A program made the position numbers and the translations under genes. A stretch of 64,000 bases of DNA from the NCBI RefSeq assembly GCF_900129905.1, contig NZ_FQXG01000003.1:177771-241770 (forward strand), read 5' to 3'. This DNA comes from Ferrimonas marina. GTDB taxonomy: Bacteria > Pseudomonadota > Gammaproteobacteria > Enterobacterales > Shewanellaceae. Under the pieces are notes generated by a model. That model saw only the letters and a program-made list of their open reading frames with translations, made no database searches and was not told where the DNA came from. Positions 1,226 to 39,888 of this stretch are shown here, piece after piece (the first letter of the stretch is position 1; every line of letters starts with the position of its first letter).

Positions 1226-1239
1226 TATACTATCGTATA
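1226..1239 (+). promoter_or_regulatory. TATAC palindrome, copy 1
   Basis: TATAC-TATC-GTATA with perfect 5-bp arms, right after the stop of the preceding gene and about 610 bp before the PilV-like gene. It matches the consensus of the family described under the findings. Confidence 0.6.
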
Positions 1240-1849
1240 CCACTGCGTCGGTCAACACTTTTGTGCCGTTAAGTTGCTGGCCTGAGGCCGGGGCGGCTTA
1301 CCCGCCTGGTTGCCCCCGCGCTGCGACGATAGGTTTCCCTGGTCTCTGGCCCAGGCGGCCTTGGCTTCGGGTCCCTGTGCCGGGCCCAGGGCGGCCCCCT
1401 TGGCCGGCTTTACGCCTCCCCCGTTGCGCCTCTGGGGGGTCAGGCATCGTGCCTCGTCAGGCTTGCCGTCGGTCCGTTGCCTTGGTCAGTATCATGTTCC
1501 CTCTCCAACTCCTCACCCTTAAATATACAATAATATATCAGCAGTCAGGATGCAAGCTTTTCTTGCGTTAAAGCATCGAATTCATTCACTTTTTTTGTGC
1601 TGTGCGCTAGGTTGTCCAGGCTTCTTCGACGCTGGTTCACTTTTCTTTTGCGGTTACTAAACCGTCTATGTGTACTATTTTTCATCGCTTTTTCCATTCT
1701 GTTAACTTCGTCACCTTAACGCCTGCCCTGGGTCTCGTCAACCTGGTGGTGGCGAGGGTGGTGTTGTGGTGATCGGTGTTATTTCGCAACACAGCGAGTG
1801 GGACCGTTTAAAATGGGGTGTGGAAACTACCGTTTAGGCCGGGGTTATT
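1240..1849. other. Noncoding interval before the PilV-like gene
   Basis: About 600 bp without a convincing gene. Open frames here are G/C- and Pro-rich and look like noise. It holds a weaker TATAC-type element at 1524-1537 (TATAC-AATA-ATATA) and a locally A+T-rich stretch from about 1510 to 1700, suitable for promoters; no terminator or RNA gene is recognisable. Confidence 0.5.
1524..1537 (+). promoter_or_regulatory. TATAC palindrome, copy 2 (imperfect)
   Basis: TATAC-AATA-ATATA, one arm mismatch, about 310 bp upstream of the PilV-like start. Same family as the palindromes at operon heads elsewhere in the window. Confidence 0.45.
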
Positions 1850-3604
1850 ATGCGAAGGATAAGGTGGCAGCGTGGTTTTACGCTGCTGGAGATGATGTTG
1901 GTGTTTGCCCTGGCGTCCATTTGGGCTGTGGGAACGCTCAACGCAAAGCGGCTTGAAGAAGATCAGGCTCAGGCGCGGCGTGTCGGTTCTCATCTCTACC
2001 AGTACAGCCAATCGCTCAGGAAGTACCTGTCCAATGAGGGTACGGGCATTGCCGTGGGTACGCATACCTACTCAGGTATCGACTGGCTCAAGGCAGAGAG
2101 CTACATGGATGGTGGTGGTGCTACGGTCCAGTATCTGAGCCAGTACGTCCCTAATGAGGTGCGCTTTGGTGGCCTGCGCTGGGAGACGGAGATTGTTAAG
2201 GCAGGTACTTCATTCACCACCAGGGTGCTGCTTCATACTGTCTTGATGGACAAAGACGGGGCGCCTGGCACCGGCTTCGTAGTCAATGGCCGTAGTCGTG
2301 GTGATCTCGCCGGTTTGGCTGCCCTGGCCGCCAGCGGTGTCGATTTCATGGGGGGTATGGACTCATCTCACGGTGCTCTGACCGATGCCGCCATCGTTTA
2401 CTGTATCCCTGGCATTGCCTATGACCCTACCCATATGTGCTCAGGCTCCGTTAACGGTGTCTCAGCCTCTGGCGCGGTGATTATGGAGATTGCCAGCGCC
2501 TCCTTCGATATCTGGTTGCGCACGGATGGCTCCAACACCATGAATTCAGACATCGTGTTCCAAACGGCTGCTGGGTTTAATCCGGCGATTAAGGGGCTGA
2601 GTGCGATCAATGATTTCGAGAGTGGGTTGCTCACGATTGGTAGTGCGGCAGATTCAAATCTGGTGATGATGGCTGATCAGGTTCAGGCAATGGCTGCTAC
2701 CAGCGTAGGCATTTCAGCCCCGGATATTACCCTCACTGGCCAAACTACCCTGGCGGGTAACGTAGAGGCCCGGGGGAACATGGTGTTTACCACGCCCAAC
2801 GCCACCCTGGCGGTAGACAATGTTGTTGCTGGTAGTGGTCAGTTTAACCTGATCTCCAGTAATGGTACGACTGGCAGGGTGGCTGATGCTTACCTGGGTT
2901 CGGTTGAGGCTAGCTTTGTCGATGCAGACAGGATCTACTCACCGGATGCTGAGTTTGATGACGTTACGATTAACGACAGCATGACCCTGGCCAATGACCT
3001 GGATGTGGGCCGTGATGCGACCGTGGGGCGGGATCTTGATGTGGGCCGTGATGTGCTGGTTTCGGGGGACGTGGATGCGTTCCGTGTTTACGCTGATGAG
3101 GTCATTGATGCATCTGGTGGCACGGTGTGGACTGGTGGTACTCAGTACCAGCGAAAGATTGACTGGGATGGTATTTCGGCGATTAACCGATTGCATGCTT
3201 GGACGTTAGAAGCTGGCGCGGTGAATGTGGATAGGCTCAGTTCTGCCAGTGGCAGTGGTATTGAGGTGTTGGAGAACATGTATGTTGGGGGTGGGTCTGC
3301 CACGTCAGCGTCATTAGCAGATCGGCTGAATTTGCATGATGGTCTGATCTGGAACATGGGGTTGACAGTAACAGACCGTGATCTTGAGTTTCCGACAAAT
3401 GTGTGTCCCAACGGCCCTGGCACAAGGGATGCCTTCGCTATTCCGGTGGTGGCGCTACCAGAGACCTATTCTGTATTCCCATATTTGCAGAACAATTCAT
3501 CCAATGTGCTACAAATTAGGCTTTACAGGCACAACGGGAGCGATTGGGTTCGGGACACGACCTCATTGCCTCAGTCGGTGGTATATGTAATGAAGTGTCG
3601 ATAA
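1850..3604 (+). CDS. pilV: PilV-like type IV pilin tip adhesin (shufflon N-terminal family)
   Basis: 584 aa. Residues 8-30 form a class III signal/prepilin helix (RGFTLLEMMLVFALASIWAV: Gly-Phe cleavage site, Glu at +5, then a hydrophobic stretch), so the product should be processed by a prepilin peptidase and assembled into a type IV pilus. Residues about 40-180 resemble the N-terminal domain of conjugative PilV adhesins. Residues about 300-430 carry short near-repeats of the form DVGRD-x-TVGRDLDVGRD-VLVSGDV, suggesting a beta-solenoid shaft. In IncI-type plasmids PilV is the tip adhesin of the thin pilus and decides recipient binding; that role here is inference. No other pil genes lie in the window, and no 19-bp shufflon recombination sites or shufflase are visible. 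A bidirectional terminator follows directly. Confidence 0.7.
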   Translation: MRRIRWQRGFTLLEMMLVFALASIWAVGTLNAKRLEEDQAQARRVGSHLYQYSQSLRKYLSNEGTGIAVGTHTYSGIDWLKAESYMDGGGATVQYLSQYVPNEVRFGGLRWETEIVKAGTSFTTRVLLHTVLMDKDGAPGTGFVVNGRSRGDLAGLAALAASGVDFMGGMDSSHGALTDAAIVYCIPGIAYDPTHMCSGSVNGVSASGAVIMEIASASFDIWLRTDGSNTMNSDIVFQTAAGFNPAIKGLSAINDFESGLLTIGSAADSNLVMMADQVQAMAATSVGISAPDITLTGQTTLAGNVEARGNMVFTTPNATLAVDNVVAGSGQFNLISSNGTTGRVADAYLGSVEASFVDADRIYSPDAEFDDVTINDSMTLANDLDVGRDATVGRDLDVGRDVLVSGDVDAFRVYADEVIDASGGTVWTGGTQYQRKIDWDGISAINRLHAWTLEAGAVNVDRLSSASGSGIEVLENMYVGGGSATSASLADRLNLHDGLIWNMGLTVTDRDLEFPTNVCPNGPGTRDAFAIPVVALPETYSVFPYLQNNSSNVLQIRLYRHNGSDWVRDTTSLPQSVVYVMKCR

Positions 3605-3634
3605 AAAAGCAGGCCTTTCGGCCTGCTTTTGTTT
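3604..3634. terminator. Bidirectional Rho-independent terminator
   Basis: A-run, then AGCAGGCC-TTTC-GGCCTGCT, then TTTTG. The stem is perfect and flanked by A and T tracts, so it can stop both the rightward pilV-like gene and the leftward protease gene that converge here. Confidence 0.9.
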
Positions 3635-5048
3635 ATTGGCGGGTTCTGCGCAGTAGCAATAGAGCAAGGAGGCTGAGGAGTCCCATGGAGCCGCCGCTAG
3701 AACCTTTCTTTTCAGGGGCGGTGGGTTCTGTGGGCTTGTTCTCTTCGGTTTCTTCCTCTTCGTTGCCCTCGTTACCTTCGTTGGTATCTTCGCCATCAGT
3801 GCCCTCCTCAGTGGGAATTGCTTCGATGTTGATGGTGAGCATCCCGACTTCACCAACTGTGCCATTGTCAGAGCTGATTTCAACAAAGGCCGTCTGAGCG
3901 GTTTCTGCTGCTGTGACGCTTAATGTGAATACTGCCTCGGTTTGCCCCACCTTAAATGCAACTGAATTCGTAGCTGTAGTGACTCCAGCACCGCTCACGT
4001 TGATGTTTAGGGTTTCTTCGGTCTCACTGCCCTCGGTGCGCAGAACAACAACCTCAAAACCGGTCATATCATGCTCAATCTGAACCTGTGCCTCACCGAA
4101 GTTGAATACGCCACGAGCTTTGGGTTGCGCGTTGTATACGGTGTAGTCGTAAAGCTCATGCGACTGATTCGAGATCTTCCACTCGGAAAAATCTGCAGGC
4201 ATGATCATTGTGCAAACGTCAGCGGGTTCTAGTGTATCTGGGCACGTGCCAGCACCAGTGAGGTTGAGGGGGATGGTCTCAAGACTCAGGTTCTGAATCT
4301 CGATAGCCGCGCCCGGGAGGGCCAGACCGGGGTAAGCGAGGCCGTCTACCTCAATGAGGAAGTATTCTTTAGTCACATCGCCGTAGAAGCTAACGCCTAC
4401 AGGCTCGTTGCCGCCACCTACCATCAATCCGAAAATGCGTCCATCGTTACTGATGAGTGTCGATCCACTATCGCCGCCTGTTGTCCATCCTAGGGTGGGT
4501 GTGATGAAGGTGAGCCAAACGGGACTCTGTGTGCCCAGCTCGTTTTCTAGTAAGCCGTCAAAGCAGTCGGGGGCGGAAAAATCCGGGTCACAACCAGCAG
4601 CAAGCATGTTTTGGTAATTGCTCACGGTTCCTTCAAGCTTTGAAAGATGGCCTGGAGTTCCGCCGTAACCGAGGTACTTGAACTCGTGACCCGCTTCGGG
4701 AGGGGTGTCGTCGAACTTGATTGGGTTAAAGTCTTTTGCTCGCAGGGGATCGTGTTTGGCTACAGATGTGTAGCTGGATCGGCCTTCTGACCCGTTAACG
4801 ACTTCGGTGTAGGGTGTGTCGAGGTTGAAGTAGTGCACCTCCTTGTCCCCATACAGCACTGTAGGCTCACCGCAGTGGTTGGCAGTGATGCTCACGTAGG
4901 GATTGAGCAGGGTCGCGGTGCAGTATTGCCCTTCGGCAGTCCACATCACGAAGTTAGAGCCTTCGCCCTCGGCGACCGGGCCACCGTCGGTAACGGCAAA
5001 GGCCTGTGCGGCAAAGAGGGTGGCTGCGAGAATCAGGGTCTTTTTCAT
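3633..5048 (-). CDS. Secreted trypsin-like serine protease with GlyGly-CTERM tail
   Basis: 471 aa from the ATG at 5048, which begins a clear Sec signal peptide (MKKTLILAATLFAAQAFA). The catalytic triad of the S1 family is visible: ITANHCG (His), an Asp region near FKYLGYGG, and TGGDSGSTL (Ser). Residues about 240-430 form Ig-like beta-rich modules. The C-terminus has an acidic linker (EGTDGEDTNEGNEGNEEEE) followed by GSSGGSMGLLSLLALLLLRRTRQ-type GlyGly-CTERM sorting tail: Gly/Ser motif, one transmembrane helix, basic end. In that family the tail is cut by rhombosortase and the protein is exported by type II secretion; the sorting enzyme must be elsewhere in the genome. A perfect TATAC palindrome (5083-5100) sits 35 bp upstream, linking it to the window-wide regulon. 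Confidence 0.88.
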   Translation of the reverse strand: MKKTLILAATLFAAQAFAVTDGGPVAEGEGSNFVMWTAEGQYCTATLLNPYVSITANHCGEPTVLYGDKEVHYFNLDTPYTEVVNGSEGRSSYTSVAKHDPLRAKDFNPIKFDDTPPEAGHEFKYLGYGGTPGHLSKLEGTVSNYQNMLAAGCDPDFSAPDCFDGLLENELGTQSPVWLTFITPTLGWTTGGDSGSTLISNDGRIFGLMVGGGNEPVGVSFYGDVTKEYFLIEVDGLAYPGLALPGAAIEIQNLSLETIPLNLTGAGTCPDTLEPADVCTMIMPADFSEWKISNQSHELYDYTVYNAQPKARGVFNFGEAQVQIEHDMTGFEVVVLRTEGSETEETLNINVSGAGVTTATNSVAFKVGQTEAVFTLSVTAAETAQTAFVEISSDNGTVGEVGMLTINIEAIPTEEGTDGEDTNEGNEGNEEEETEENKPTEPTAPEKKGSSGGSMGLLSLLALLLLRRTRQ

Positions 5049-5082: not shown

Positions 5083-5100
5083 AATATACCAATGTATATT
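5083..5100 (-). promoter_or_regulatory. TATAC palindrome, copy 3, protease promoter
   Basis: AATATAC-CAAT-GTATATT, perfect 7-bp arms with a 4-bp spacer. It lies 35 bp before the protease start codon at 5048, where a -10 box or operator would be expected. Confidence 0.75.
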
Positions 5101-6114: not shown

Positions 6115-6948
6115 TTAATGGATGTTGGCGGCTGTGGGCTCTGCTTTGCCGCCAGTGGCGGATTCATAGGCTTCGTATTCCATTTGGTCAAAGTCCATGC
6201 TGCAGGTCTGGGCCAGCACTTTGGCCTGAATGAACAGGTCGTGCTGGCTATCGCCGACGTTTCCAAAGTCTAAGCCCTGTTCCTGGCGGTACTTGGTCCA
6301 TGCCTCAGTGACGGTCTTGCCTCGCTTGGCGCCAGCATCGTTTTTACCGCTGTGGTACTCGGCGAGATACGCTTTGGTCACGTCGGTCAGGAATGAGGTC
6401 AGTGCCTCAGTGGGGCAGAGTGGCTTTACTTCGTAACTGAACTCTGTCGCAGCAACGCAGTGCTGTTTGACGATCTGCACCAGTTTTTTGAGGGTGGCGT
6501 TTTCTGCGTCGGCGCTCAGTTCCGGGAGAATGGGGCCGTCAAGGAAGATGACCGCCAGCACTTGGTAGCTGCCGGTCTCGGGGGTGTACTCTTTCGCGCT
6601 GTCGCTAGCGGCGTTATTGGCGCTCACGTTCTCGCCAACGCAGTGGGTGATGGGCTGACCACCGGTGTACTCGACATAGCGCTTCTCGGAGTGGGTGAAC
6701 CCCAGGGTGATGGCGGTCTGTCGAGCTGTGTGGCTGAGCGAGCGGTCAAACCGACGACTGTAGCTGATCTGGGTGTGCTCAGGGCAAATCCAGAGCTCCA
6801 GGTGGGTGACAAAGCTGTCGTGGACGGTAACTTCCTCCACCTGGCACTTAAGCTCATTGGCCAGCACGGCCAGGGCGAACTTGTGGTCGCCTTGGGCGAA
6901 GGTGATGTGGTTCTTCCCGTGGGCAGACCCAGTGATGACGGTGTACAT
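6115..6948 (-). CDS. Hypothetical protein, 277 aa, first gene of operon
   Basis: The start at 6948 (MYTVITGSAHGKNHITFAQGD) follows an AAGGAC ribosome binding site; an in-frame extension upstream would translate the promoter palindrome and is rejected. The protein is mixed alpha/beta with scattered His and Cys but no motif I can name. It heads a three-gene leftward operon driven by the TATAC palindrome at 6986-6999. Residues 150-277 are mainly helical and charged. Function unknown. Confidence 0.7.
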   Translation of the reverse strand: MYTVITGSAHGKNHITFAQGDHKFALAVLANELKCQVEEVTVHDSFVTHLELWICPEHTQISYSRRFDRSLSHTARQTAITLGFTHSEKRYVEYTGGQPITHCVGENVSANNAASDSAKEYTPETGSYQVLAVIFLDGPILPELSADAENATLKKLVQIVKQHCVAATEFSYEVKPLCPTEALTSFLTDVTKAYLAEYHSGKNDAGAKRGKTVTEAWTKYRQEQGLDFGNVGDSQHDLFIQAKVLAQTCSMDFDQMEYEAYESATGGKAEPTAANIH

Positions 6949-6985
6949 AGTGTGTCCTTTCACTTCAAACTCAACACCCTCAATA

Positions 6986-6999
6986 TATACTTTCATATA
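6986..6999 (-). promoter_or_regulatory. TATAC palindrome, copy 4, operon head
   Basis: Read on the minus strand: TATAT-GAAA-GTATA, followed by TATTGAGG and then the conserved leader GTGTTGAGTT, then the ribosome binding site of the gene starting at 6948. Confidence 0.75.
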
Positions 7000-7034
7000 T
7001 CGAGGGGTCAAGTCTTTTCCACCCGCCAGCGCGT

Positions 7035-7691
7035 TTATTCCGTATTGAAGATCTGCACCAGAATCTCCTGCCCTGGTGCGCCAGCCGGGTATTGGGCGCG
7101 GCACGCTTCGATGATGGCCTGCCAGATGGGGGTGGGGAGGATGTCACTGGCATCGCCATCTCCGTTAAGGGAGCCGTCTACCTTGACGTACACATCGCTG
7201 CCCTCGTTTGGCTTGGGGCCGGGCGTATGGCAGCGTGCAAGGCCGTTGCCGGGGTTATTGAGGGCCGCTAAGAAGCCTTCGTTCTTGTACCACTTTGGCG
7301 CGTAAATCTGCACGAAGGGGGTCCGGGATGAGGTCACGTAGCTTGGCTTGTCTGCTGCCGTGGGGGCAGGGGTTTGGGCCTTGTCTTGCAGCTTGCGCAA
7401 CCATTGGTCGTCGGCGGCGTCGTTCCAGGGGTTGGCCGGGTCAAAGTTGCCGATGTACTCGGGGGCTGCACTGGGGGTGGTGCAGATGAACTTGGCGCAG
7501 GGAATGCCGACATCCGTTTGCGGGTCATTGCGCAGCAGCACGCCGTTACTTGCCTCGAACTCTGCCAGTTGCTGGCCAACGAATTGGGTCGTGTTGTTCA
7601 GCATGGCCAGCAGGGCGCTTTTGCGGTCCTCTGGCATGGGTGACAGGGCTACAGCTGCCGCCAGCCGGGTGGGTGTTAGTGTCTTCGCCAT
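7035..7691 (-). CDS. Hypothetical protein, 218 aa
   Basis: Start at 7691 (MAKTLTPTRLAAAVALSPMPEDR) has an AAGGAAC site. The sequence is Pro/Ala-rich in the middle (QTPAPTAADKPSY) with an aromatic segment VQIYAPKWYKNEGFLAALN. No family recognised. Last of the four-gene leftward operon that starts at the promoter near 9183; the gene ends 35 bp before the next operon's palindrome. Confidence 0.68.
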   Translation of the reverse strand: MAKTLTPTRLAAAVALSPMPEDRKSALLAMLNNTTQFVGQQLAEFEASNGVLLRNDPQTDVGIPCAKFICTTPSAAPEYIGNFDPANPWNDAADDQWLRKLQDKAQTPAPTAADKPSYVTSSRTPFVQIYAPKWYKNEGFLAALNNPGNGLARCHTPGPKPNEGSDVYVKVDGSLNGDGDASDILPTPIWQAIIEACRAQYPAGAPGQEILVQIFNTE

Positions 7692-7707
7692 GATCGTTCC
7701 TTGGTCT

Positions 7708-8202
7708 TTATGGTTGAGAGTTAAGTGCCTGAACCTCAGCGCACTCCTTGAGCCAGGCCTGTTCATCGCCGTCGTACAGGTCGTTGACGTAAAGCAGCCA
7801 TCCCCGGTCGTCTTTGCTGGCCGGGTAGCGGTAGGGCAGGCCGTCGTCCAACTCCGCCAGTTCCTCGGGTGGGACTGCGCGGTAGCTGTCAATGCAGTCG
7901 GACCAAATGGCGAGGGTATCCGCTGGCCAGTCAAAGCCCTTGGGGTCCGTGCTAATGACAAAGCCGGTTCCTTTGGACGTTAACTCGTCGGGGTCGAATG
8001 TGCTGCTTAGCCACATGATCGGGGTCATTGGCCGGTCGGTGCGGAACCCGCTTGTGTCGATCTCCGCCTCGATGATGACGTTGCCGTACCGGCGAGCGAC
8101 GTTGGGGCTAGCCGTAAAGAACATCATGGCCGGGTGGTCGGAGTGGCCGCCATCGGGCCGCCAGCCCCCGAAGTGTTCCTGTGTGCCGTGATAAACCTTC
8201 AT
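7708..8202 (-). CDS. Possible ADP-ribosyltransferase-fold protein, 164 aa
   Basis: The N-terminus MKVYHGTQEHFGGW followed by MMFFTASPNVARRYGNVI is the pattern of small ADP-ribosyltransferase-like proteins: a YHGT strand, an FTxSxxxAxxYG helix start, then beta strands with VIIEAEID. The HGT and the Tyr are plausible H and Y positions of an H-Y-E type site; the Glu is not assigned with certainty. If active it would modify host or invader targets, which is inference only. GAGGGAC precedes the ATG. It sits third in a four-gene TATAC-headed operon. Confidence 0.6.
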   Translation of the reverse strand: MKVYHGTQEHFGGWRPDGGHSDHPAMMFFTASPNVARRYGNVIIEAEIDTSGFRTDRPMTPIMWLSSTFDPDELTSKGTGFVISTDPKGFDWPADTLAIWSDCIDSYRAVPPEELAELDDGLPYRYPASKDDRGWLLYVNDLYDGDEQAWLKECAEVQALNSQP

Positions 8203-8227
8203 GGTGTCCCTCGCCGGTACGTTGGGG

Positions 8228-8734
8228 CTAAGCTTGGGCCGGGTAAAGCATCTGGTGGTACAGGGCGTCTTGTTCTTCCCAGTCCATCAGTTCGTGGGCT
8301 TTCACCAGGTCTTGTACCGCCGCCAGCGGGTTCTTGCTTTTCAGTGCCTCCTGGATGGTGGCCAGGGGTACTGCCGTTTCAGACGAATCCAAAACCGGGT
8401 GGTGCTGGTTTTTGACCTGGATGCTGCCACCCACTACCTGCAGCCACTGGGTGTCGTTATAGGCTTCACCGTCGCCACTGGGGCCGCAATGCTTCTCAAA
8501 AGGCAGGTTCAGCGCCGCCAGCGTGCTCTCGATGCCTAACGCGCCGTACTTGATGCCTTCAAACTCGATCTCTACAGCTGCGCCGTCGTTGCTGGTCACG
8601 TTACCGCCGAAGGGGTAGGTCCGGTATTCCTGGTCGAGGTCGATATCGTTGCCTGCACTCTGTAGCGCTGCATTCAGTGCGGTGAGGCAGGTCTTGAGCA
8701 GGGTCAGGGTTACGTTGCAATCGTGATCGCTCAT
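8228..8734 (-). CDS. Hypothetical protein, 168 aa
   Basis: Well-placed start at 8734 (AAGGACACAG before ATG). Residues 1-40 are helical (TLTLLKTCLTALNAALQ), residues 40-110 beta-rich, the rest helical and acidic (LVKAHELMDWEEQDALY). No family recognised. Second gene of the operon headed by the secreted protein at 9141. Confidence 0.68.
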   Translation of the reverse strand: MSDHDCNVTLTLLKTCLTALNAALQSAGNDIDLDQEYRTYPFGGNVTSNDGAAVEIEFEGIKYGALGIESTLAALNLPFEKHCGPSGDGEAYNDTQWLQVVGGSIQVKNQHHPVLDSSETAVPLATIQEALKSKNPLAAVQDLVKAHELMDWEEQDALYHQMLYPAQA

Positions 8735-8745
8735 GGTCTGTGTCC

Positions 8746-9141
8746 TTACAGGTGGTTGATATGGGGGGTCAGGTAGCGCTCTACGTGGTTGGTGACAAAG
8801 GCCACCAACTCCGCTTCGGGGATGCAGTCGCGGAAGTCGCGGACCCGGTTGGTCTTGGGGTGGCTAGTAGAAATGAATCGGCTATGGCCGTTCACACTGT
8901 CACGCAGGCTGATATGACAGGTGGTGCCGCCCTCAACGATGCCGAAGATGACGTGGTGGGTGTCGCCAAAGAAGATGGCTTTGCTCAGCGACGGGGTGCC
9001 GGTGGAGCGCTCGTAGCGGCTCTGGGCTAGGATGCGGTCGGACAGGTCTTGAGCCTGGGCGGGTGCTACTGTCGCCGTGGCGATCAGGGCCAGTGCCAAG
9101 GTCTTGCTGGCTCGGGCCGCCAGCTTGGAAAGCATTTCCAT
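8746..9141 (-). CDS. Predicted periplasmic or secreted protein, 131 aa
   Basis: Residues 1-31 are a Sec signal peptide: basic start, hydrophobic core TLALALIATATVAP and AQA cleavage site before QDLSD. The mature part has two Cys (TTCHISL and RDCIPEAE) able to form a disulfide, which fits an envelope location. First gene of a four-gene leftward operon with a TATAC palindrome 35 bp upstream. No family recognised. Confidence 0.7.
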   Translation of the reverse strand: MEMLSKLAARASKTLALALIATATVAPAQAQDLSDRILAQSRYERSTGTPSLSKAIFFGDTHHVIFGIVEGGTTCHISLRDSVNGHSRFISTSHPKTNRVRDFRDCIPEAELVAFVTNHVERYLTPHINHL

Positions 9142-9175
9142 TGCCTCACTCCATCAATCAACTCAACACCATCAG

Positions 9176-9189
9176 TATATAAAAGTATA
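9176..9189 (-). promoter_or_regulatory. TATAC palindrome, copy 5, operon head
   Basis: Minus strand: TATAC-TTTT-ATATA, followed by CTGATG and the conserved GTGTTGAGTT leader before the gene starting at 9141. Confidence 0.75.
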
Positions 9190-9231
9190 TTAAAAGGTTC
9201 AAGTTTTTGTTGGTGTGGAGTGTGTCTTGAG

Positions 9232-9281: not shown

Positions 9282-9758
9282 TTAACCGTCAGGTTGCGTT
9301 ACTTCTTGAACGAAGTCCGCGAAAGCGGCTCGGATGAGTGCTTTGTTGTTCTGCCCAAGGTATCGGGCCAGTTGGCCACATTGGCGTGCATAGTGGTGGA
9401 TGGGTTCATCTTCTGGTTTGATCTCTGAAACCAGTGCCTCCATGGACTCTTTGAACCAACGGGCGCGATTTTGGTTCGACTTGCTTAGATCGTATTCAGT
9501 GCCTAACCCACTCTGGTGGTGGTAATAGTGGAACAGGTTGCACATAGCATCGCAAATAGTCTGGGCTACAGGTTCATTGGGTGAGTCTTCGATTTTACTG
9601 AGCGCCTGAAGCATGTGGGTCGTGGCTTGCAAGTCCTTCTGGACAGCGGCGGGGGTTGGGTCGTTTGAGGGACCAGAGTCTGGCTTTTGGGTGCAGAATA
9701 ATTGCGTGATGGTTTCTGCGAAAGCGGTCATCTCTGGTGCTGCTTTGATGGTGATCAT
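9282..9758 (-). CDS. Hypothetical helical protein, 158 aa
   Basis: Start at 9758 (MITIKAAPEMTAFAETI) chosen because the upstream part of the frame overlaps the preceding gene and an AAGGAAC site lies just before it. Mostly alpha-helical, with a His-rich segment LFHYYHHQSGLG near residue 80. No family recognised. Last of five genes in the operon starting at 11869. Confidence 0.65.
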   Translation of the reverse strand: MITIKAAPEMTAFAETITQLFCTQKPDSGPSNDPTPAAVQKDLQATTHMLQALSKIEDSPNEPVAQTICDAMCNLFHYYHHQSGLGTEYDLSKSNQNRARWFKESMEALVSEIKPEDEPIHHYARQCGQLARYLGQNNKALIRAAFADFVQEVTQPDG

Positions 9759-9817
9759 AGCTTTGGGTTCCTTGCTAGTTGGAAGGGTAGGGCAACTCAA
9801 TGAGCCGCCCTGGTGGG

Positions 9818-10537
9818 TTACTTGATATTGGGAATGATGATCCGGTTCAGTTCCCAGCGGTGGCCGCAATCCAGACACTCCATTTCCAGGGTGGTGCGTT
9901 CATCGCCGTCATGGTCAGTGTCGGGGCTACCACACTCAGGACACTCCTTGTCGGTTTCAATGGTGATCGGGCTTTTGGTGTCCAGTGGCGTAAGCGCTGT
10001 TACGGCCTGTGCCGCTTCACCCAAGGCTGACAGCAAGTTAGTCGCTGCACCTGTGGCTCGGTTAGGTGAGCCGGTCATGGTGGCTTTTGTGGCCAGGTCG
10101 TTGGCTGTTTGGAGCAGTTCCGCCAGCACTTTAACAATCTCTCGGTGATTGGCATCGGCCAGCACGGTCATGGGCGAGCTTGGCTGGACAACGGCACCGC
10201 CAGGCTCTTGAGGTAATACGCACATCGCGGCCAGTTCGGTCGGGTCCAGGGCGCGATAGTCGAAGGTCAGGGCGATCTCCTGGTCCAGTCTCATCACAAC
10301 GTACTGCAGGCGAAGCTGGTCCATGTTCGGGGCGCTGTGGTGCTCCATAATCTGGTTCCACATATGCAGGCGCTGGCCTTGGCTGGGAACGTCCGGGCTG
10401 TCGCTGTGCTCGTAGTGGATAAAGCCACACCAGGGACAGGCGTCGTAACGAAGCAGGGTTGTTGAGCCGGTGTTTTGCTTCACCAGCACCGGGTTGCTGC
10501 AGCAGGGGCATTGTGAGCCGTAGGATTCGGTATCCAT
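9818..10537 (-). CDS. Protein with two zinc ribbons, 239 aa
   Basis: Four Cys pairs are visible: QCPCCSN and ACPWCGF at residues 9-40, then ECPECGSPD and ECLDCGHRW near the C-terminus (residues about 198-228). That gives two four-Cys ribbons flanking a helical core. The C-terminal ribbon with CGHRW resembles ribbons in transcription-associated proteins, but no family can be named. CAGGAG precedes the ATG. Fourth gene of a five-gene TATAC-headed operon. Confidence 0.72.
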   Translation of the reverse strand: MDTESYGSQCPCCSNPVLVKQNTGSTTLLRYDACPWCGFIHYEHSDSPDVPSQGQRLHMWNQIMEHHSAPNMDQLRLQYVVMRLDQEIALTFDYRALDPTELAAMCVLPQEPGGAVVQPSSPMTVLADANHREIVKVLAELLQTANDLATKATMTGSPNRATGAATNLLSALGEAAQAVTALTPLDTKSPITIETDKECPECGSPDTDHDGDERTTLEMECLDCGHRWELNRIIIPNIK

Positions 10538-10559
10538 GGTCTTTCTCCTGGGTAGGGGC

Positions 10560-11177
10560 TTAGCCGCGTGAAGTCACTTCGGCTTCATTGATGGTGATCC
10601 CGCTGACAGTGAGGGCGTTAGCCTCCTGCAATTTGGAGATCTCGGCCTGTAGGTTCTCGCAAAGGGAGTCGGGGCAAATCACGCCGCCGTCGCTCGATAC
10701 TCGCAACGTCACTTCAAACACCAGCGGTTGGCTAACGAACTGATCAAACTGTTCACTGTTGTGCTGACGCAGGTGCTCAATCATCTTGACGTAGATGGGG
10801 CGTCCGGCCTTGGCCTTGGCCATGGCTTCTCGCGCCTGGCTGGCAGTGACGTTCAGCTTTACCAGTTCACCGTCTTCCCAGGCCACGACAATCCCTTCCT
10901 TCGCCAGAAATTCGCACTCTTCGTCTGTCAGGGGGCCGTTGAGGTGGGTGTCGAAGCCCTCTAGGGTGCCGCGTGTTCTGGTTCCATTTCTTGCGCAGTC
11001 CTGGCAAGCGGCGGGGCTGTTTCCGCTGTACTGGGGGTTTTCGCTGTCCACCGCGTTAACGGCTGGTGTCAGGGTAGCATGGTCGCCATTCTGCTCAATC
11101 AGCATCAGCTTGGTGGTTTCCACTGCGATCTTGGTTGAGCCGCACATGGGGCAGCGGTAACGGGGCAAAAGTGACAT
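10560..11177 (-). CDS. Zinc-ribbon hypothetical protein, 205 aa
   Basis: Cys pairs RCPMCGST (residues 8-15) and ACQDCARN (residue about 58) make a split zinc ribbon at the N-terminus; the rest is helical with an acidic middle. Start at 11177 has an AAGGAAAC site. Third gene of the same operon as the two-ribbon protein, so zinc-ribbon proteins lie next to each other. Function unknown. Confidence 0.72.
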   Translation of the reverse strand: MSLLPRYRCPMCGSTKIAVETTKLMLIEQNGDHATLTPAVNAVDSENPQYSGNSPAACQDCARNGTRTRGTLEGFDTHLNGPLTDEECEFLAKEGIVVAWEDGELVKLNVTASQAREAMAKAKAGRPIYVKMIEHLRQHNSEQFDQFVSQPLVFEVTLRVSSDGGVICPDSLCENLQAEISKLQEANALTVSGITINEAEVTSRG

Positions 11178-11188
11178 AGCGTGTTTCC

Positions 11189-11494: not shown

Positions 11495-11497
11495 TGC

Positions 11498-12810: not shown

Positions 12811-12864
12811 AGCTGGGCTTCCTTGTCAGTCTGTGCCGGGTCGGGCTATGCCGGGCTTGGTGGG

Positions 12865-32247: not shown

Positions 32248-32595
32248 TCAGTGGATAAACAGGGGCACCACGGCCTGGGGATCTTGCTGAAGCCGTGCGC
32301 ACGCCAAGTTGAATCCTTTGGGTGCGTGGCGAAACACCAGGGCACAGGCTGCTTGCGGATCGGTACCGCGGTACAACTGCTCTCCCTTGGTAAAGGCGGT
32401 GCGCGGCGCGGCATCGGCCGGCAGCTTGTTTACCGTCAGGTTGAGCTGGCCTGCCCCGGGGGCGTTGATTACCTGGGGATCCAGATGGCGCAGGTCATTG
32501 GCGACGATCTGCAGTCGGTACTGCTTGCCGATGTAGGTCCATCGGCGGATTTTAGGGGCAGGCCGTTTGGCTCCGGGGTGTTGGGTTGCGTCCAT
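32248..32595 (-). CDS. Hypothetical protein, 115 aa
   Basis: Start at 32595 (MDATQHPGAKRPAPKIRRW) follows AAGGAGA. Basic N-terminus, then a mixed fold ending LQQDPQAVVPLFIH. No family recognised. Last gene of the leftward operon from 33924. Confidence 0.65.
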   Translation of the reverse strand: MDATQHPGAKRPAPKIRRWTYIGKQYRLQIVANDLRHLDPQVINAPGAGQLNLTVNKLPADAAPRTAFTKGEQLYRGTDPQAACALVFRHAPKGFNLACARLQQDPQAVVPLFIH

Positions 32596-32674
32596 GTTCG
32601 GGTCTCCTTGTGCTGAGTTGCCCTGGTTGGGTGCCTTGAGGGCCAGGGGGCGGCTGCCCCCTGGTGCGTCCGGG

Positions 32675-33178
32675 TTAAGCGGCTTGGTGGAGGGCCGCCG
32701 ACACGTCAGCGACCCTTTTGCGCAGTGCGTCAGCCTTGCTGGGGTCCTGGCGGAACAGGTTGGCAATCTCAGGATCGTGCTCGGTAACGAGGTCGAGGGT
32801 CTCGAGCAGGGTTTTGGGCTGCAGCTCTTTGTAGGCGGTGCCACTGATGGAGATGCCACTCGCCTCAATGAAGCCGTCTACGGTTGGGTTCGCATAGCCG
32901 CCGTAATAAGCGTCTCCATAGGCAAACCAGATGGCGTTGCGTTCTGGGAACAGCGAGAAGGTAAAGAGTGGGCTGTGCTCGTCATCCTCACTGGTTTGGT
33001 GGGGGGTGAACTCAAACAGCACCTCGACGCCGGCAGCTAACAGGCGTGCGTTCTTTGCGTATCTGCCATTAGTGTCGGCACGATGGCCCTGGGGCAAGCC
33101 GGCGAGTTGGTTCCAAAGCGCCTCGGGTAGGGCGCGGGTGTGCATCACCTGATGCCAAATCTGGTTGATTAAGTCCAT
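32675..33178 (-). CDS. Hypothetical protein, 167 aa
   Basis: Start at 33178 (MDLINQIWHQVMHTRALPEA), GGAGATCC before the ATG. Middle has FAYGDAYYGGYANPTVDGF, a Tyr/Gly-rich segment; the C-terminus is helical (ADALRKRVADVSAALHQ). No family recognised. Second gene of the operon. Confidence 0.67.
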   Translation of the reverse strand: MDLINQIWHQVMHTRALPEALWNQLAGLPQGHRADTNGRYAKNARLLAAGVEVLFEFTPHQTSEDDEHSPLFTFSLFPERNAIWFAYGDAYYGGYANPTVDGFIEASGISISGTAYKELQPKTLLETLDLVTEHDPEIANLFRQDPSKADALRKRVADVSAALHQAA

Positions 33179-33204
33179 GGGGATCTCCGCTTCGGTGAAT
33201 GTGG

Positions 33205-33924
33205 TTAAACCGCGATGTTGTCGAGCAGTCCGCGGATCTCGGCACTGCATCCCTTGAGCAACTCGGTCTCAATGAGGTTGTTGGGCAACAGGGCCAGTTG
33301 CTCAACACCCTTGTCAATGCTGGCGGCCGCACGGCCCAGGAAGTGCTGCATGACGTTGAGGCGCTGGAACTGTTGGGGTAGGCCGTGGCTGGCAGCGAGC
33401 ACCTGGTGGCGCACCTCAATCAGCTCGGGGACGCAGTCCTGAGTCTGCTTGTACACAATCTTGCTCAGAGGGCAGTCGCCACGAGCCAGTTTCTCAGCGC
33501 TTTTTGCGTGTAAGGCGTCGATGCGGTGGATCATGTTGGTGACGGCATCGGCAGCCCGGCCGTTGTTGATCACCTGGATGATGTCGGTGCCAAACTGGCG
33601 CCAGATCTGCTGGCCAATGCCCTTGGGTAGCAGGATGGAGGTTTGCTCGCCGGCCGGATTGCCGGGCAGGTTGCCGTCGACGAAGCGGCGACACCAGGTC
33701 AGGGCCCCCGATTTTTTGATAATCGGGATTTGCGCCTCGAAGGCGCGGATCTTGTTTTCAAGCTGGGCGGTTTCCCTCGTGAGCATCACCGGTTCCTCAA
33801 CGTCCTCGCCGCTGCGGGATTGCTGCACTTCGTTTTCCGTGGCGGCCAGGGTAGTGGCAACGGCGTCAAGGTGGCTCTGAAAATACGCCACCAGGGCGTT
33901 CTTGAGCTTATCGGCTGCGGTCAT
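33205..33924 (-). CDS. Hypothetical helical protein, 239 aa
   Basis: Start at 33924, AAGGAGGGG upstream. Residues 1-70 form helices with an acidic coiled coil; the rest is mostly alpha-helical (VINNGRAADAVTNMIHRIDA). No motif recognised. First gene of a three-gene operon with the TATAC palindrome at 34040 and a strong terminator of the previous operon just upstream. Confidence 0.68.
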   Translation of the reverse strand: MTAADKLKNALVAYFQSHLDAVATTLAATENEVQQSRSGEDVEEPVMLTRETAQLENKIRAFEAQIPIIKKSGALTWCRRFVDGNLPGNPAGEQTSILLPKGIGQQIWRQFGTDIIQVINNGRAADAVTNMIHRIDALHAKSAEKLARGDCPLSKIVYKQTQDCVPELIEVRHQVLAASHGLPQQFQRLNVMQHFLGRAAASIDKGVEQLALLPNNLIETELLKGCSAEIRGLLDNIAV

Positions 33925-34039
33925 GGGGTCCCCTCCTTGGGGTGGGCGCCGGCGGGCGTCCCGACAAAAACACTGCTGGGCACTTGGCCCTCAACGGGTG
34001 CGCAGCGTTCACTGCGACTGTGTTTATTAATTTACCAAG

Positions 34040-34053
34040 TATACGAAAGTATA
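34040..34053 (-). promoter_or_regulatory. TATAC palindrome, copy 10, operon head
   Basis: TATAC-GAAA-GTATA, perfect 5-bp arms, placed between the preceding operon's terminator and the gene starting at 33924. The leader here is long (about 115 bp). Confidence 0.75.
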
Positions 34054-34057
34054 TCAA

Positions 34058-34384: not shown

Positions 34385-34678
34385 CTAACCGCCGGCTTGG
34401 CCGGATTCCAGGGCTGAGTAGTTGCACAGTTCGGACTTCTGCCAGTATTCGTTGTCCATCTCAAAGTCCGTACCGTCGACTTGGTCGTAACAGTCGCGTA
34501 CCAGATCCTCCATCGCGCTGGGGTTGTTGGCCAGGGCAGCGGGGACCTCAATCACCTCTTCGTAGGTGTGGCGGCTCTGGGCGGCCAGTTGAATGGAAAC
34601 CTTGACGGTTTCACCGCCGGTCAAGCCATGTGCGGTGGCCAGCTCGTTGGCGGCGTCTTGGCAGGGGGCTTTGCTCAT
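34385..34678 (-). CDS. Hypothetical protein, 97 aa
   Basis: ATG at 34678 after AAGGAAGG. MSKAPCQDAANELATAHGLT, then beta strands and an acidic tail (DQVDGTDFEMDNEYW). Sixth gene of the operon that starts at 36003. No family recognised. Confidence 0.65.
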   Translation of the reverse strand: MSKAPCQDAANELATAHGLTGGETVKVSIQLAAQSRHTYEEVIEVPAALANNPSAMEDLVRDCYDQVDGTDFEMDNEYWQKSELCNYSALESGQAGG

Positions 34679-34717
34679 GATCGTCCTTCCTTGTTGTTTG
34701 GTGGATGGCCAGGGGGA

Positions 34718-34936
34718 TTAAATGCGGTCCAGTGCATCTTGAACCCACTTGTCGGCTTGCTGCTCAGAACACTGGAGCTTGCCGTTTTGCAGTTCCTGCT
34801 TAGCTCTGGCGACGGCCTTTGCCAGGGCGGCGTCGCCGCCCTCGTCGTTGGCTGCACGAAACTGGTTGATCAGTAGCTCCAGCAGCTGGAATTTCAGCAG
34901 TGTCACGCGGCTCGGGTTAGGGGTTTGATGGCTCAT
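34718..34936 (-). CDS. Small helical protein, 72 aa
   Basis: ATG at 34936 after CGGGAGAA. Nearly all helical (LLKFQLLELLINQFRAAND; ALAKAVARAKQELQNGK). No family recognised. Fifth gene of the same operon. Confidence 0.65.
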   Translation of the reverse strand: MSHQTPNPSRVTLLKFQLLELLINQFRAANDEGGDAALAKAVARAKQELQNGKLQCSEQQADKWVQDALDRI

Positions 34937-34957
34937 GACGGTTCTCCCGGTCAGAAG

Positions 34958-35071
34958 TTAGGCCTGCGCATTGTGCTGGCCGGCGCGCTGGTAGGCGCCA
35001 AGCAGCTCTGCGTGGGAGACGTGGTAAAACTTCGGGTGCCGGCCGTGTTGAACGAATTCATCCACCGACAT
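34958..35071 (-). CDS. Very small protein, 37 aa
   Basis: A frame beginning at 35071, 3 bp after the previous stop, reading MSVDEFVQHGRHPKFYHVSH and ending at 34958. Tight coupling to the upstream gene and sensible codon use argue that it is real; nothing further can be said. Confidence 0.5.
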   Translation of the reverse strand: MSVDEFVQHGRHPKFYHVSHAELLGAYQRAGQHNAQA

Positions 35072-35074
35072 GGT

Positions 35075-35296
35075 CTAGGCGGCGTGGCGCTGCCCTGGTG
35101 GTTGAAAGATGTTCTGCCAATTGCCGGCTTCGTCCATGGCTTGAACAAAGGAATCCACCCGGGGCTGTGTCGCCAGCACCACGATTCGGGCCTGTTGCCC
35201 GTTAACGCGGGTGATGGTCTCGCAGTAGTTGCGGCCCAGGGTGCCAGTGGTGACGGTGTCGCCGTTGGCTTTCTGGATGGTGTTTTGCTCGGTCAT
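35075..35296 (-). CDS. Hypothetical protein, 73 aa
   Basis: ATG at 35296 after TAAGGATC. MTEQNTIQKANGDTVTTGTL with a beta-rich middle (NYCETITRVNGQQARIVVLA). Third gene of the operon from 36003. No family recognised. Confidence 0.63.
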   Translation of the reverse strand: MTEQNTIQKANGDTVTTGTLGRNYCETITRVNGQQARIVVLATQPRVDSFVQAMDEAGNWQNIFQPPGQRHAA

Positions 35297-35346
35297 AGCG
35301 CGATCCTTACGTTGGTACTCAGGTGGGGGCTAGGCCCCCGGGTCGG

Positions 35347-35790
35347 TTACAGGGTGCCAATCATCTCGAAGCCAAAACGATCGACCATGAATACCTCTCG
35401 CTCGCCACCGTCGACGGGGCGGACGATGATATCGCCAACGCTCATGCTGGTGTGCTGAAGGCCCTTGGCTCGGATAAGCTCCCGGGCTTCACCCTGCGGT
35501 GACCACATCTCGCCTTGCATCAGGTGGCAGATCTGGTGCAGTGGCGTTCGGCCATGCAGGGTGCCCAGCTCGATGTACTGAGCCTTGAGCAGCGTCGGAA
35601 TGTCGTCCAGGTGACCGCGCTTGCGGGCGACTTTCACGCCTTCGGCCAGGTCCTGTTGGATCTCTGTCATGCGGCCTTGCGGGGCCAGGCGTTCACAGCT
35701 GCGGTAGAAGATCTGAAAAGGCCGGGCGTTCTCGACGTTCGCCAGCGCCGCCAGTACCGGGGCATCACTCAGGTTTTTATAACAATTCAT
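35347..35790 (-). CDS. Hypothetical protein, 147 aa
   Basis: Start at 35790 (MNCYKNLSDAPVLAALANVE), AAGGACC upstream. Helical N-terminal half with a short HQICHLMQGEMW segment, beta-rich end (VGDIIVRPVDGGEREVFMVD). No family recognised. Second gene of the operon. Confidence 0.66.
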   Translation of the reverse strand: MNCYKNLSDAPVLAALANVENARPFQIFYRSCERLAPQGRMTEIQQDLAEGVKVARKRGHLDDIPTLLKAQYIELGTLHGRTPLHQICHLMQGEMWSPQGEARELIRAKGLQHTSMSVGDIIVRPVDGGEREVFMVDRFGFEMIGTL

Positions 35791-35865
35791 TTTGCGGTCC
35801 TTGCACTTAGTCAATCAACGGGTACAGCTTAGCGGATGGGGCTTGAGGCCCTGGCCTCTGGCGAC

Positions 35866-36003
35866 TTACTTGCCGTTCAGCAGGGAGTTGAGGTAGCGCT
35901 CCTCCGCGTCCAGCTTGGCCTTTAGGGCCTTGAGGTAGTCCTCATAGGCAGCGACGACCTTGGGGCTGTCCAGGGTTTTGTCTAGTTGTGATTTTGCAGA
36001 CAT
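35866..36003 (-). CDS. Small charged protein, 45 aa, operon head
   Basis: ATG at 36003 after GTAAGGATC; reads MSAKSQLDKTLDSPKVVAAY then a single charged helix ending NSLLNGK. First gene of the leftward seven-gene operon, 60 bp downstream of the TATAC palindrome at 36063. Confidence 0.68.
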   Translation of the reverse strand: MSAKSQLDKTLDSPKVVAAYEDYLKALKAKLDAEERYLNSLLNGK

Positions 36004-36062
36004 AGTGGATCCTTACTATTCGTTTCAACGGTGGTGTCACTCAACAAATACAGAATAACAAA

Positions 36063-36076
36063 TATACTTATGTATA
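36063..36076 (-). promoter_or_regulatory. TATAC palindrome, copy 11, operon head
   Basis: TATAC-TTAT-GTATA, extended arms AATATAC and GTATATC. Minus strand continues into TTTGTTGAGT, the conserved leader, then the ribosome site of the gene at 36003. Confidence 0.78.
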
Positions 36077-36121
36077 TCAAGGGTGGGACTGCATTTGCGC
36101 TATTTTTCTTGCAATGGGTTG

Positions 36122-36135
36122 TATATTTTCATATA
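36122..36135 (+). promoter_or_regulatory. TATAC palindrome, copy 12
   Basis: TATAT-TTTC-ATATA, then TTGAATGG on the plus strand. With copy 11 it makes a divergent pair: copy 11 serves the leftward operon and copy 12 the rightward gene at 36334. Confidence 0.68.
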
Positions 36136-36333
36136 TTGAATGGGCAGCCCGCTCCTTGGCATTGGCCCTGGCGTTGGTTGTGCGGTCTCTGCGCCGCGTT
36201 ACGCCCCGCCGGCACCGCCGGTTATGGCCAAGGCAGTGTAAGACCCAGCAACACCCCATTTTGACGCCAAACCTTGAATGGCGGCCTGATGGAACGGGGC
36301 AACATCGAAACGCCGCTGCAAAAGGATTGAGCG

Positions 36334-38270: not shown

Positions 38271-38288
38271 GGTTATGGGGGGAGCGGG

Positions 38289-38873: not shown

Positions 38874-39101
38874 TTAGCGCTGGCGCAGCGCCTTCGTTGT
38901 TTCTGCAATCTCCTGCTGGCGGTCGGCCAGCAGGTTCTCCAGATCAGCCCAGACGCCCTCTGGGATGGGCCGTTCACCGGCCATCCACTGGCGCACTCGA
39001 CGCGCGTCTGACAAGCCCAGGCCCTCGGCAAGGCGGGTCTGCCACTGCTTACCGTAGAGGGCGAGGCCGACCCGTTGAAGAAGTTCAGTCTTATTGGTCA
39101 C
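38874..39101 (-). CDS. Small HTH protein, 75 aa
   Basis: MTNKTELLQRVGLALYGKQW then LAEGLGLSDARRVRQWMAGE and an acidic helix: a small Cro/Xre-like helix-turn-helix protein, the recognition helix being SDARRVRQWMAG. It overlaps the end of the NinX-like gene by 11 bp and is probably co-transcribed with it. Confidence 0.68.
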   Translation of the reverse strand: MTNKTELLQRVGLALYGKQWQTRLAEGLGLSDARRVRQWMAGERPIPEGVWADLENLLADRQQEIAETTKALRQR

Positions 39102-39528
39102 GAGTGAAATACTCCGGTACGTCGATGTAATCCCCCTGCTGGCTCGCTACATAGGCTCGCATCAGGGCGATCTGTGGGGTGTCACCATGGGAGACGGTAC
39201 CGTCTTGAGCGGTGGCCTGCCAAAGGGTGCCGTCACTGTTGGGCGCCAGGGCGATGCGCTCCTGCTCTTGAATGGGGCCCGCTTGTTCCCAGCGGCGGGA
39301 GGGGGCGTAATCGTAGCCGATCAACAACGAGGTTTGGTTTAGCTTGCTGCTCCAAATCCAGAAGCCTGCCTGGCTCGACTTGGGGGCGTCGTTTTGAAAG
39401 CCAATCGGGTCGAAGAGGATCTCCGATTGGCGCTGTTCCAGCTTCTCTTGGGTCCAATGCAAGGTAGCTACGGCCCAGTCCAGGGCGGCGCCGGTGAGGT
39501 CGGAAACTTGCAGGCTTACGGTATTCAT
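39091..39528 (-). CDS. DUF2591/NinX-like protein, 145 aa
   Basis: Start at 39528 (MNTVSLQVSDLTGAALDWAV). The LTGAALDWAVA opening, the central WEQAGPI and the end ALMRAYVASQQGDYIDVPE match the phage NinX/DUF2591 family. That family is found in phages and plasmids; function not established. Confidence 0.78.
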   Translation of the reverse strand: MNTVSLQVSDLTGAALDWAVATLHWTQEKLEQRQSEILFDPIGFQNDAPKSSQAGFWIWSSKLNQTSLLIGYDYAPSRRWEQAGPIQEQERIALAPNSDGTLWQATAQDGTVSHGDTPQIALMRAYVASQQGDYIDVPEYFTRDQ

Positions 39529-39585
39529 GAGGTGTTCGTCCTTGATGACGTTAGGGTGGCCCCTTGGCCTTCCCGATAACACCAA

Positions 39586-39888
39586 TGTACCTAAAAATAG
39601 GTACGGGCCGCAAGCCTGTTATTAGGCCGTTTTGTTCTAAGACTAGGTAAGTTGTGGATATACTTTTATATATTTCTGGTTGCTTTATTGCCTGGGTTTG
39701 GTATCTTTGTAACTGCGGTAGGGCGTTGCACTGGATGCATTCGAACCCGCAGCCTGAGCGAGGCGGCCTCTCCCTGAAATAGGCAGTACGGATATCAATC
39801 TAACCCTTCTTCGCAATCTTTATCGGGTTGCTCTGAGACGGTAACGGGAGAAACCAGAGTAGAGCAGCCAAGAATAAGGATTTGCATC
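39586..39888. other. Intergenic region with promoter palindrome
   Basis: About 300 bp. It holds the TATAC palindrome at 39659 and otherwise no gene. Confidence 0.5.
39659..39672 (+). promoter_or_regulatory. TATAC palindrome, copy 13
   Basis: TATAC-TTTT-ATATA, about 215 bp upstream of the rightward gene at 39889 and 130 bp upstream of the leftward NinX-like gene, so it could serve either. Confidence 0.68.

Follow-up and report, generated by a model that had tools for sequence, protein, structure and literature searches.

The locus

We examined a 64-kb window of the Ferrimonas marina genome (C10:177771-241770), where C10 stands for the 576,248-base contig NZ_FQXG01000003.1 in an assembly of 4.98 Mb and 18 contigs. 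Many of the small-gene units in this window are preceded by copies of one palindrome, here called the site, with the consensus AATATAC-N4-GTATATT (18 bp with 7-bp arms). Counts and negative results for C10 refer throughout to its readable part. An initial annotation of the window had counted 13 copies, three of them with perfect 7-bp arms, and a symmetric 18-bp matrix likewise gives 13 sites of at least 12 bits, with the perfect copies at 5083-5100, 11899-11916 and 19419-19436. The leftward units that it named (first starts at 6948, 9141, 11869, 14628, 33924 and 36003) have sites 44, 42, 38, 132, 122 and 66 bases (b) before them, and the protease-like and C5-methyltransferase genes that it singled out have sites 44 and 40 b before their starts. 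Distances are measured from the site centre, and a gene or unit is called headed when its start lies within 250 b of a site. The sites and headed units, in window coordinates, are as follows.

1224..1241, no strand: site AATATACTATCGTATACC, 24.1 bits; no predicted start within 250 b
1522..1539, no strand: site AATATACAATAATATATC, 27.4 bits; no predicted start within 250 b
3633..5048, minus: headed trypsin-like protease (weak match, below the Pfam cut-off)
5083..5100, minus: site AATATACCAATGTATATT, perfect arms, 44 b before the protease-like gene
6115..6948, minus: headed gene, no Pfam match
6984..7001, minus: site TATATACTTTCATATATC, 44 b before 6948
7035..9141, minus: headed unit of four small genes, the first without a Pfam match
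9174..9191, minus: site AGTATATAAAAGTATATT, 42 b before 9141
9282..11869, minus: headed unit of five small genes, the first without a Pfam match, another with weak zinc-ribbon matches
11899..11916, no strand: site AATATACTAAAGTATATT, perfect arms, between the divergent starts 11869 (minus) and 12037 (plus), 38 b before 11869
12037..12561, plus: divergent gene, 130 b from site 11899..11916
12631..14628, minus: headed unit of five small genes, the first without a Pfam match
14662..14679, minus: weaker site AGTATATCAAAATATACC, 18.3 bits
14751..14768, minus: site AATATACATAAATATATT, 132 b before 14628
17979..19388, minus: headed C5-cytosine DNA methyltransferase (PF00145, E 3.6e-10)
19419..19436, no strand: site AATATACCAAAGTATATT, perfect arms, 40 b before the C5-methyltransferase, with 19629 (plus) divergent
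19629..20306, plus: divergent gene, 202 b from site 19419..19436, no Pfam match
32248..33924, minus: headed unit of three genes; two checked, both without a Pfam match
34038..34055, minus: site AGTATACGAAAGTATATC, 122 b before 33924
34385..36003, minus: headed unit of six small genes
36061..36078, no strand: site AATATACTTATGTATATC, 66 b before 36003
36120..36137, no strand: second, weaker site TGTATATTTTCATATATT, 20.0 bits
36334..37104, plus: divergent gene, about 205 b from the weaker site 36120..36137, no Pfam match
38874..39528, minus: headed two-gene unit, the last gene encoding a 75-amino-acid helix-turn-helix (HTH) protein with its own palindrome
39657..39674, no strand: site GATATACTTTTATATATT, 138 b before 39528 (minus) and 224 b before 39889 (plus)
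39889..40818, plus: divergent gene, 224 b from site 39657..39674, no Pfam match

Number and distribution of the site

Within the window the pattern TATACNNNNGTATA occurs 11 times at up to one mismatch, against a mean of 0.25 and a largest count of 2 in 100 dinucleotide shuffles. The pattern continues past the window edges, with 30 perfect and 25 one-mismatch copies on C10. Because the 18-bp matrix was trained on these 55 copies, they score high by construction; scanned with it, the replicon holds 62 sites of at least 12 bits after overlaps are merged, 61 of them intergenic, where Markov-shuffled intergenic sequence scored with the same matrix gives 0.45 (20 shuffles, largest 1). Shuffled sequence therefore does not reproduce the frequency of the motif. 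Columns inside the search pattern are partly fixed by the selection of sites, and the flanking columns beyond it are also conserved (A at 1.7 bits on the left, T at 0.97 bits on the right).

We show that the site is confined to one replicon. Across the whole genome the pattern at up to one mismatch occurs 63 times against 17 for its reversed control, and all 30 perfect copies listed map to C10, none being listed elsewhere. ATATACN4GTATAT is present in only one of 14 genus genomes, the source genome itself; among 152 family genomes, 29 others have one or two copies and the source genome 20, and for AATATACN4GTATATT among 394 order genomes, 11 others have one each and the source genome 11. These sets overlap and together comprise 513 genomes including the source, and in the other 512 the motif search found no comparable pile-up of sites. 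Perfect TATACN4GTATA is absent from six related megaplasmids, and among nine further records or genomes one has three copies where its control has two. The initial annotation had placed the palindrome at the head of at least nine transcription units and read it as the mark of an undescribed regulon; it was right as to a real promoter element at many units, and this element is replicon-restricted. The literature searched (four site spellings, Ferrimonas together with megaplasmid, and plasmid-wide palindromic regulons, the latter two topics by title and abstract) contained none of the four spellings and no description of this regulon.

The replicon

C10 is a conjugative megaplasmid, or part of one, because it encodes a VirB4-like conjugation ATPase with megaplasmid relatives, DnaE-like and topoisomerase-like proteins whose pMPPla107 orthologues are annotated likewise, and a protein that we take to be ribonucleotide reductase-like. 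The eight best plasmid relatives of the VirB4-like protein, at 37-40% identity, are encoded by megaplasmids of 0.88-1.17 Mb (FeN3W, pMPPla107, P. silesiensis pPL1, pBASL58 and four Vibrio records), and a scan of genome contigs with the VirB4-like alignment found two distant relatives. Per 20 kb, G+C is 50-59% on C10 against 56-62% in ten stretches sampled from other contigs. A PLSDB near-identity search with the first 50 kb of the window returned no match.

Eight TGTATC-N5-GATACA palindromes lie at C10 125787-127672 and 317895, seven of them clustered near a ParA-like gene, and this cluster is likely the parS-like centromere of C10. Additionally, some 20 diverged copies of AACTCTGTTTATCGATCCGT lie at window positions 23321-25347, within a long region where few genes are predicted.

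Promoter geometry

The sites are closely tied to gene starts. A start lies within 250 b of 56 of the 62 sites, on both sides in 22 cases, and the distance from the site centre to the nearest start is 24-70 b in 41 of these 56, with a mode of 38-48 b. Since such distances leave no room for a whole promoter downstream of the site, we infer that the right arm, GTATATT, overlaps or adjoins the -10 element. The leaders have an element in common as well: TGTTGA, picked post hoc as the most enriched of all leader hexamers, is found in 15 of 56 headed leaders against 1.1 expected from 484 other leaders, and 14 of its 21 occurrences fall 14-23 b downstream of the site centre, around the inferred transcription start (the leaders of window 9141 and 19388 are examples).

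Two explanations that need no dedicated transcriptional regulator bear on this geometry. The site could be simply an AT-rich promoter consensus of the plasmid, as the resemblance of its right arm to a -10 element would suggest; conservation outside the search pattern on both sides, and a chromosome that lacks the site despite using the same polymerase, make this improbable. The site could instead serve DNA maintenance (centromere, nucleoid or membrane anchoring, or methylation), with promoter position secondary. Its spread over hundreds of kilobases would suit such a role, as would the placement of 55 of the 62 sites in one part of C10, to the right of 178 kb (conjugation orthologues lie at about 142-181 kb). 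We think it hardly probable, given how strongly the sites are tied to start codons and given the separate parS-like repeat near the ParA-like gene.

Genes under the site

Counting starts within 250 b on either side of a site, and extending along the strand across gaps of at most 80 b, the site heads at most 69 units, which hold 123 of the 537 genes predicted on C10; this upper estimate includes both sides of divergent pairs. Identified genes among them are recA (site 42 b before), ssb (44 b before), a YfbR-like nucleotidase, two C5-methyltransferases (window 17979-19388 and C10 270253-271680), a 373-residue PAPS-reductase-domain protein and a DUF4942 protein. Two headed DndB-like proteins exceed the Pfam DndB and NCBIfam DGQHR cut-offs, with sites 24 and 32 b before their starts, and each is encoded divergently from a large gene (C10 319788-323207 and C10 276854-280249). 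The product of the former has relatives among plasmid proteins that carry a PAPS-reductase family annotation; that of the latter shares 40% identity with it over 492 residues and has no Pfam match (1048 residues tested). Because of this kinship and mutual identity we call both large partners DndC-like. An exonuclease gene (C10 354753-355358) sits 272 b from a site, past the 250-b limit, and is not counted. Seven headed window genes compared with Pfam gave no match, and three unheaded proteins tested alongside all matched.

Our data also show that the conserved backbone is excluded. None of the 35 genes with reciprocal-best orthologues in three megaplasmids (two of these read in part), which are largely conjugation/transfer and replication genes, is headed (Fisher p=1.1e-4), and 3 of 43 are headed when orthologues in at least two of the three suffice. 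The initial annotation had expected anti-host or transfer-related functions. The methyltransferases, DndB/DndC-like pairs, ssb and recA under the site make an anti-host flavour plausible, and the exclusion of the conserved genes speaks against transfer.

Headed recA and ssb would also be expected of an SOS-like plasmid regulon, with the site as a LexA-type box and DNA damage as the inducer. We regard this as very improbable: the two Peptidase_S24 matches in the genome both lie on other contigs, with none on C10, no perfect copy of the site is listed outside C10, and the methyltransferases and the many headed genes of no assigned function are not SOS genes.

A proposed repressor of establishment genes

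On balance we lean towards reading the site as the operator of a plasmid-encoded repressor that controls an establishment regulon, similar to zygotic induction, from about 60 promoters of one conjugative megaplasmid; this proposal is drawn from sequence analysis. A dimeric plasmid-encoded DNA-binding protein that occupies the palindrome at these promoters would cover or adjoin the -10 element and so keep RNA polymerase out, and for this reason a repressor seems the most likely type of regulator. An established host would keep the headed units repressed. When the plasmid enters a repressor-free cell, zygotic induction would follow, a burst of expression that ends as repressor accumulates; establishment functions such as DNA methylation, SSB, RecA and the DndB/DndC-like proteins would be supplied in this phase. 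We infer both the repressor, rather than an activator, and the establishment role. Methyltransferases and ssb have been described among the leading-region genes of plasmids (PMC11541004).

Several points weigh against this proposal. No regulator is tied to the site on C10. Most headed genes have no assigned function, so that the establishment role is carried by a minority of them, and oriT and relaxase were not located on C10, so that the leading region is not placed. Of the 62 sites, five lack any start in the 250-b range and another falls within a predicted gene; starts and genes here come from our own simple gene finder. Additionally, -35 boxes with at least four of six TTGACA positions are not in excess (20 of 56, against a shuffled mean of 14.1 and a largest count of 24, with 29 in reverse orientation). 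Five-of-six matches spaced 14-20 from the right arm do occur more often than in 200 shuffles (9 of 56, against a mean of 1.7 and a largest count of 7), with 3 in reverse orientation. Near-consensus -35 boxes therefore mark some of the promoters only.

A near-consensus -35 in only a minority is what activator-dependent promoters look like, and the site might thus bind a plasmid-encoded activator or an alternative polymerase factor, for instance for a damage or mating response, with which headed recA and ssb would agree. A position over or adjoining the -10 element is a poor location for a classical activator, and the regulators identified in R388 were all repressors (PMC3937220). We therefore consider activation unlikely.

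A single operator at about 60 promoters would define a very large plasmid-encoded regulon, placing more than 100 genes, mostly without known function, under common control and singling out those that act at establishment (anti-restriction and DNA protection). To our knowledge, which is an impression rather than a survey, little is known of megaplasmid regulation.

Candidate regulators

The three HTH genes that the initial annotation had proposed as binders (window 20700-21350, 30129-30494 and 57491-58027) fared poorly, as none is headed by the site; the second matches HTH_17 and the third has no Pfam match. The first, a coiled-coil/HTH protein, was set aside because its own palindrome, TGTATC-N8-GATACA, stands twice just upstream (window 21388-21440), with no other exact copy on C10. 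Its half-site is that of the parS-like TGTATC-N5-GATACA repeats, with a different spacing.

Further HTH candidates came from a scan with a matrix made from HTH segments. An HTH_3 protein (C10 242758-243390) was set aside, having no TATAC-type site nearby and, by eye, GTTATCA-N6-TGATAAC upstream. The 75-residue HTH protein (window 38874-39101, Aca2_YdiL below cut-off) belongs to a headed unit and was likewise set aside for its own palindrome, GTACCT-N6-AGGTAC, a single copy on C10 at window 39587-39604, before the unit 38874-39528. Its best matches are 54-55% identical, and HTH relatives occur on 693 plasmid records, mostly from Klebsiella and Acinetobacter; two Klebsiella plasmids have, by eye, the same palindrome before homologous operons, with a C5-methyltransferase nearby. 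A DUF6088-like protein (window 49176-49733, below cut-off) is found in all four megaplasmids with a toxin-like neighbour in the other three; we take it to be an AbiEi-type antitoxin and rejected it. Seven paralogous multi-HTH proteins are encoded at C10 248022-254116, 304449-304916, 375696-376736 and 378509-379381, and this family was rejected as the regulator, the three other megaplasmids as read having only one weak match. KorA/TrfB (PF16509) gave nothing on C10 and one sub-threshold match on another contig.

Of the named candidates a DndB-like protein is the best. Sites head both dndB-like genes, and published work describes DndB as a repressor that binds palindromes at its own promoter; among identified headed proteins this is the only family for which such a repressor was found. 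Even so, we hold it to be a doubtful choice. In Salmonella enterica the dndB promoter carries two TACG-N10-CGTA boxes to which DndB binds; deletion of dndB left ten further genes carrying the motif unaffected (PMC4507180). That motif differs from TATAC-N4-GTATA in both sequence and spacing. When the four closest dndB relatives were examined, both divergent promoters had an exact 5-4-5 palindrome in Vibrio SCSIO 43139 alone, namely GTTAA-N4-TTAAC, which is found nowhere else on its plasmid. Among the other marine plasmids with such a divergent dndB/dndC-like pair, V. nigripulchritudo has one exact copy of it at the pair and one elsewhere, the Shewanella aestuarii pair has a single TGATA-N4-TATCA, and the Aliivibrio pair has no such palindrome. 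In 12 dndB-like upstream regions examined from 49 plasmid records with a dndB-like match (an Alteromonas region, with dndB cut by the end of the stretch, was left out), palindromes with 4-b spacers are only mildly enriched (8 against 3.45 expected, a count reached in 13 of 300 shuffles), and those with 6-b spacers are just as frequent (8 against 3.44, reached in 5 of 300). Speaking against DndB as the master regulator, the two C10 DndB-like proteins are unlike each other and yet stand under one operator, which plain regulon membership would explain equally well. An unrecognised protein, possibly encoded outside the readable part of C10, is the likelier regulator.

Other megaplasmids

When enriched palindromes are sought without regard to genes, the C10 motif is recovered, and other megaplasmids turn out to have different ones. 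In a megaplasmid of Vibrio parahaemolyticus the palindrome is TTTAAT-N-ATTAAA; most copies stand 60-100 b from the start that follows and, as judged by eye, immediately before TTGAC, the position of an activator site or UP-element, which counts in favour of the activator reading. For FeN3W (800 of 910 kb read) the palindrome is TATTGACA-N3-TGTCAATA, with 25 intergenic copies of at least 14 bits against 1.0 expected. For pMPPla107 (660 of 972 kb read) it is AGTATAG-N5-CTATACT, with 7 copies against 0.3 expected; it stands 69 and 67 b ahead of two annotated ssb genes and 228 b ahead of an MvaT-family gene.

In one comparison the genes under these palindromes may overlap. Of 72 orthologue pairs between C10 and the Vibrio megaplasmid, 12 are headed in C10; at the loosest setting 6 of these 12 are headed in Vibrio, compared with 10 of the remaining 60 (p=0.02), and at the strictest 4 of 12 compared with 2 of 60 (p=0.006). 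Fisher p ran from 0.006 to 0.048, uncorrected, over eight threshold and distance settings, and chance matches are common in the Vibrio record because it has 37% G+C. The strict set includes the C5-methyltransferase; Vibrio recA and ssb have weak sites (10.1 and 13.5 bits) that are lost at 14 bits. This hints at overlapping regulons with unlike operators. No reciprocal-best pair is headed in both C10 and FeN3W (44 pairs) or pMPPla107 (43 pairs), two being headed in C10 in each case.

Other enriched palindromes were discarded as promoter operators. TTTTG-N4-CAAAA was dropped as many of its copies in the first 400 kb fall inside genes (10 of 17 in pMPPla107, 8 of 16 in FeN3W), with few near starts; an intergenic excess persists (12 against 0.69 and 17 against 1.19, respectively). 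GTTAGG-N2-CCTAAC in the Vibrio record resembles an attC array, and GTTTCCATGGAAAC in FeN3W, with 10 of 13 copies clustered, looks like a centromere. Starts lie within 150 b of only 6 of 27 copies of GTTTT-N5-AAAAC in Vibrio SCSIO 43139 and 6 of 29 copies of TTTTTC-N-GAAAAA in Aliivibrio. A tandem array on a Shewanella aestuarii plasmid was also excluded (NZ_CP050315.1, 194611-197814; about 50 copies of the GTTGAACATGTTCAAC palindrome, some 64 b apart).

Since the promoter palindromes of related megaplasmids differ from that of C10, operators specific to one replicon may be a general feature of megaplasmids. Tentatively, and as a conjecture that we would not yet expect to hold, megaplasmids with pMPPla107-like conjugation might each keep a private, replicon-wide operator code over an overlapping set of establishment genes, whose turnover would give each its own repressor immunity. 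Were every megaplasmid to have an operator of its own, sequence could be used to predict the coexistence and entry of these plasmids.

Comparison with known systems

IncP-1 plasmids resemble C10 in placing palindromic operators, those of KorA and KorB, at many promoters of one replicon. The IncP-1 operators control replication, partition and transfer, whereas none of the 35 conserved backbone genes of C10 is headed. The LexA/SOS system is similar in that recA and ssb are headed by its box, and differs in gene content and in the S24 peptidase, which was not found on C10. DndB autorepression is like C10 in the palindromes at the dndB promoter, with both C10 dndB-like genes headed. However, neither C10 protein comes near the DndB equivalog (one scores 34.5 bits where the cut-off is 328, the other is not among the matches listed), the palindrome of C10 is TATAC-N4-GTATA and not the DndB-type TACG-N10-CGTA, and the dndB-like genes of other plasmids have other palindromes or none.

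The closest likeness is in the CUP-ArdK systems of IncN and IncW plasmids (R388 and pKM101). In IncN, repeated conserved upstream sequences are bound by ArdK (PMC6289460), and in R388 ArdK represses the ssb, ardC, orf7, orf12 and orf14 promoters, all regulators there being repressors in negative feedback loops (PMC3937220). Like C10, these plasmids have a repeated upstream element at several promoters including that of ssb, and both R388 and C10 link plasmid promoter control to anti-restriction-type genes and ssb. The systems differ in scale, with five ArdK promoters named in the R388 source against about 62 sites on C10, and ArdK is a TrfB/KorA-type protein, a family without a match above cut-off in the source genome. 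While not a member by the regulator family tested, the C10 regulon, which we consider genuine and replicon-wide, resembles the ArdK/CUP system in outline.

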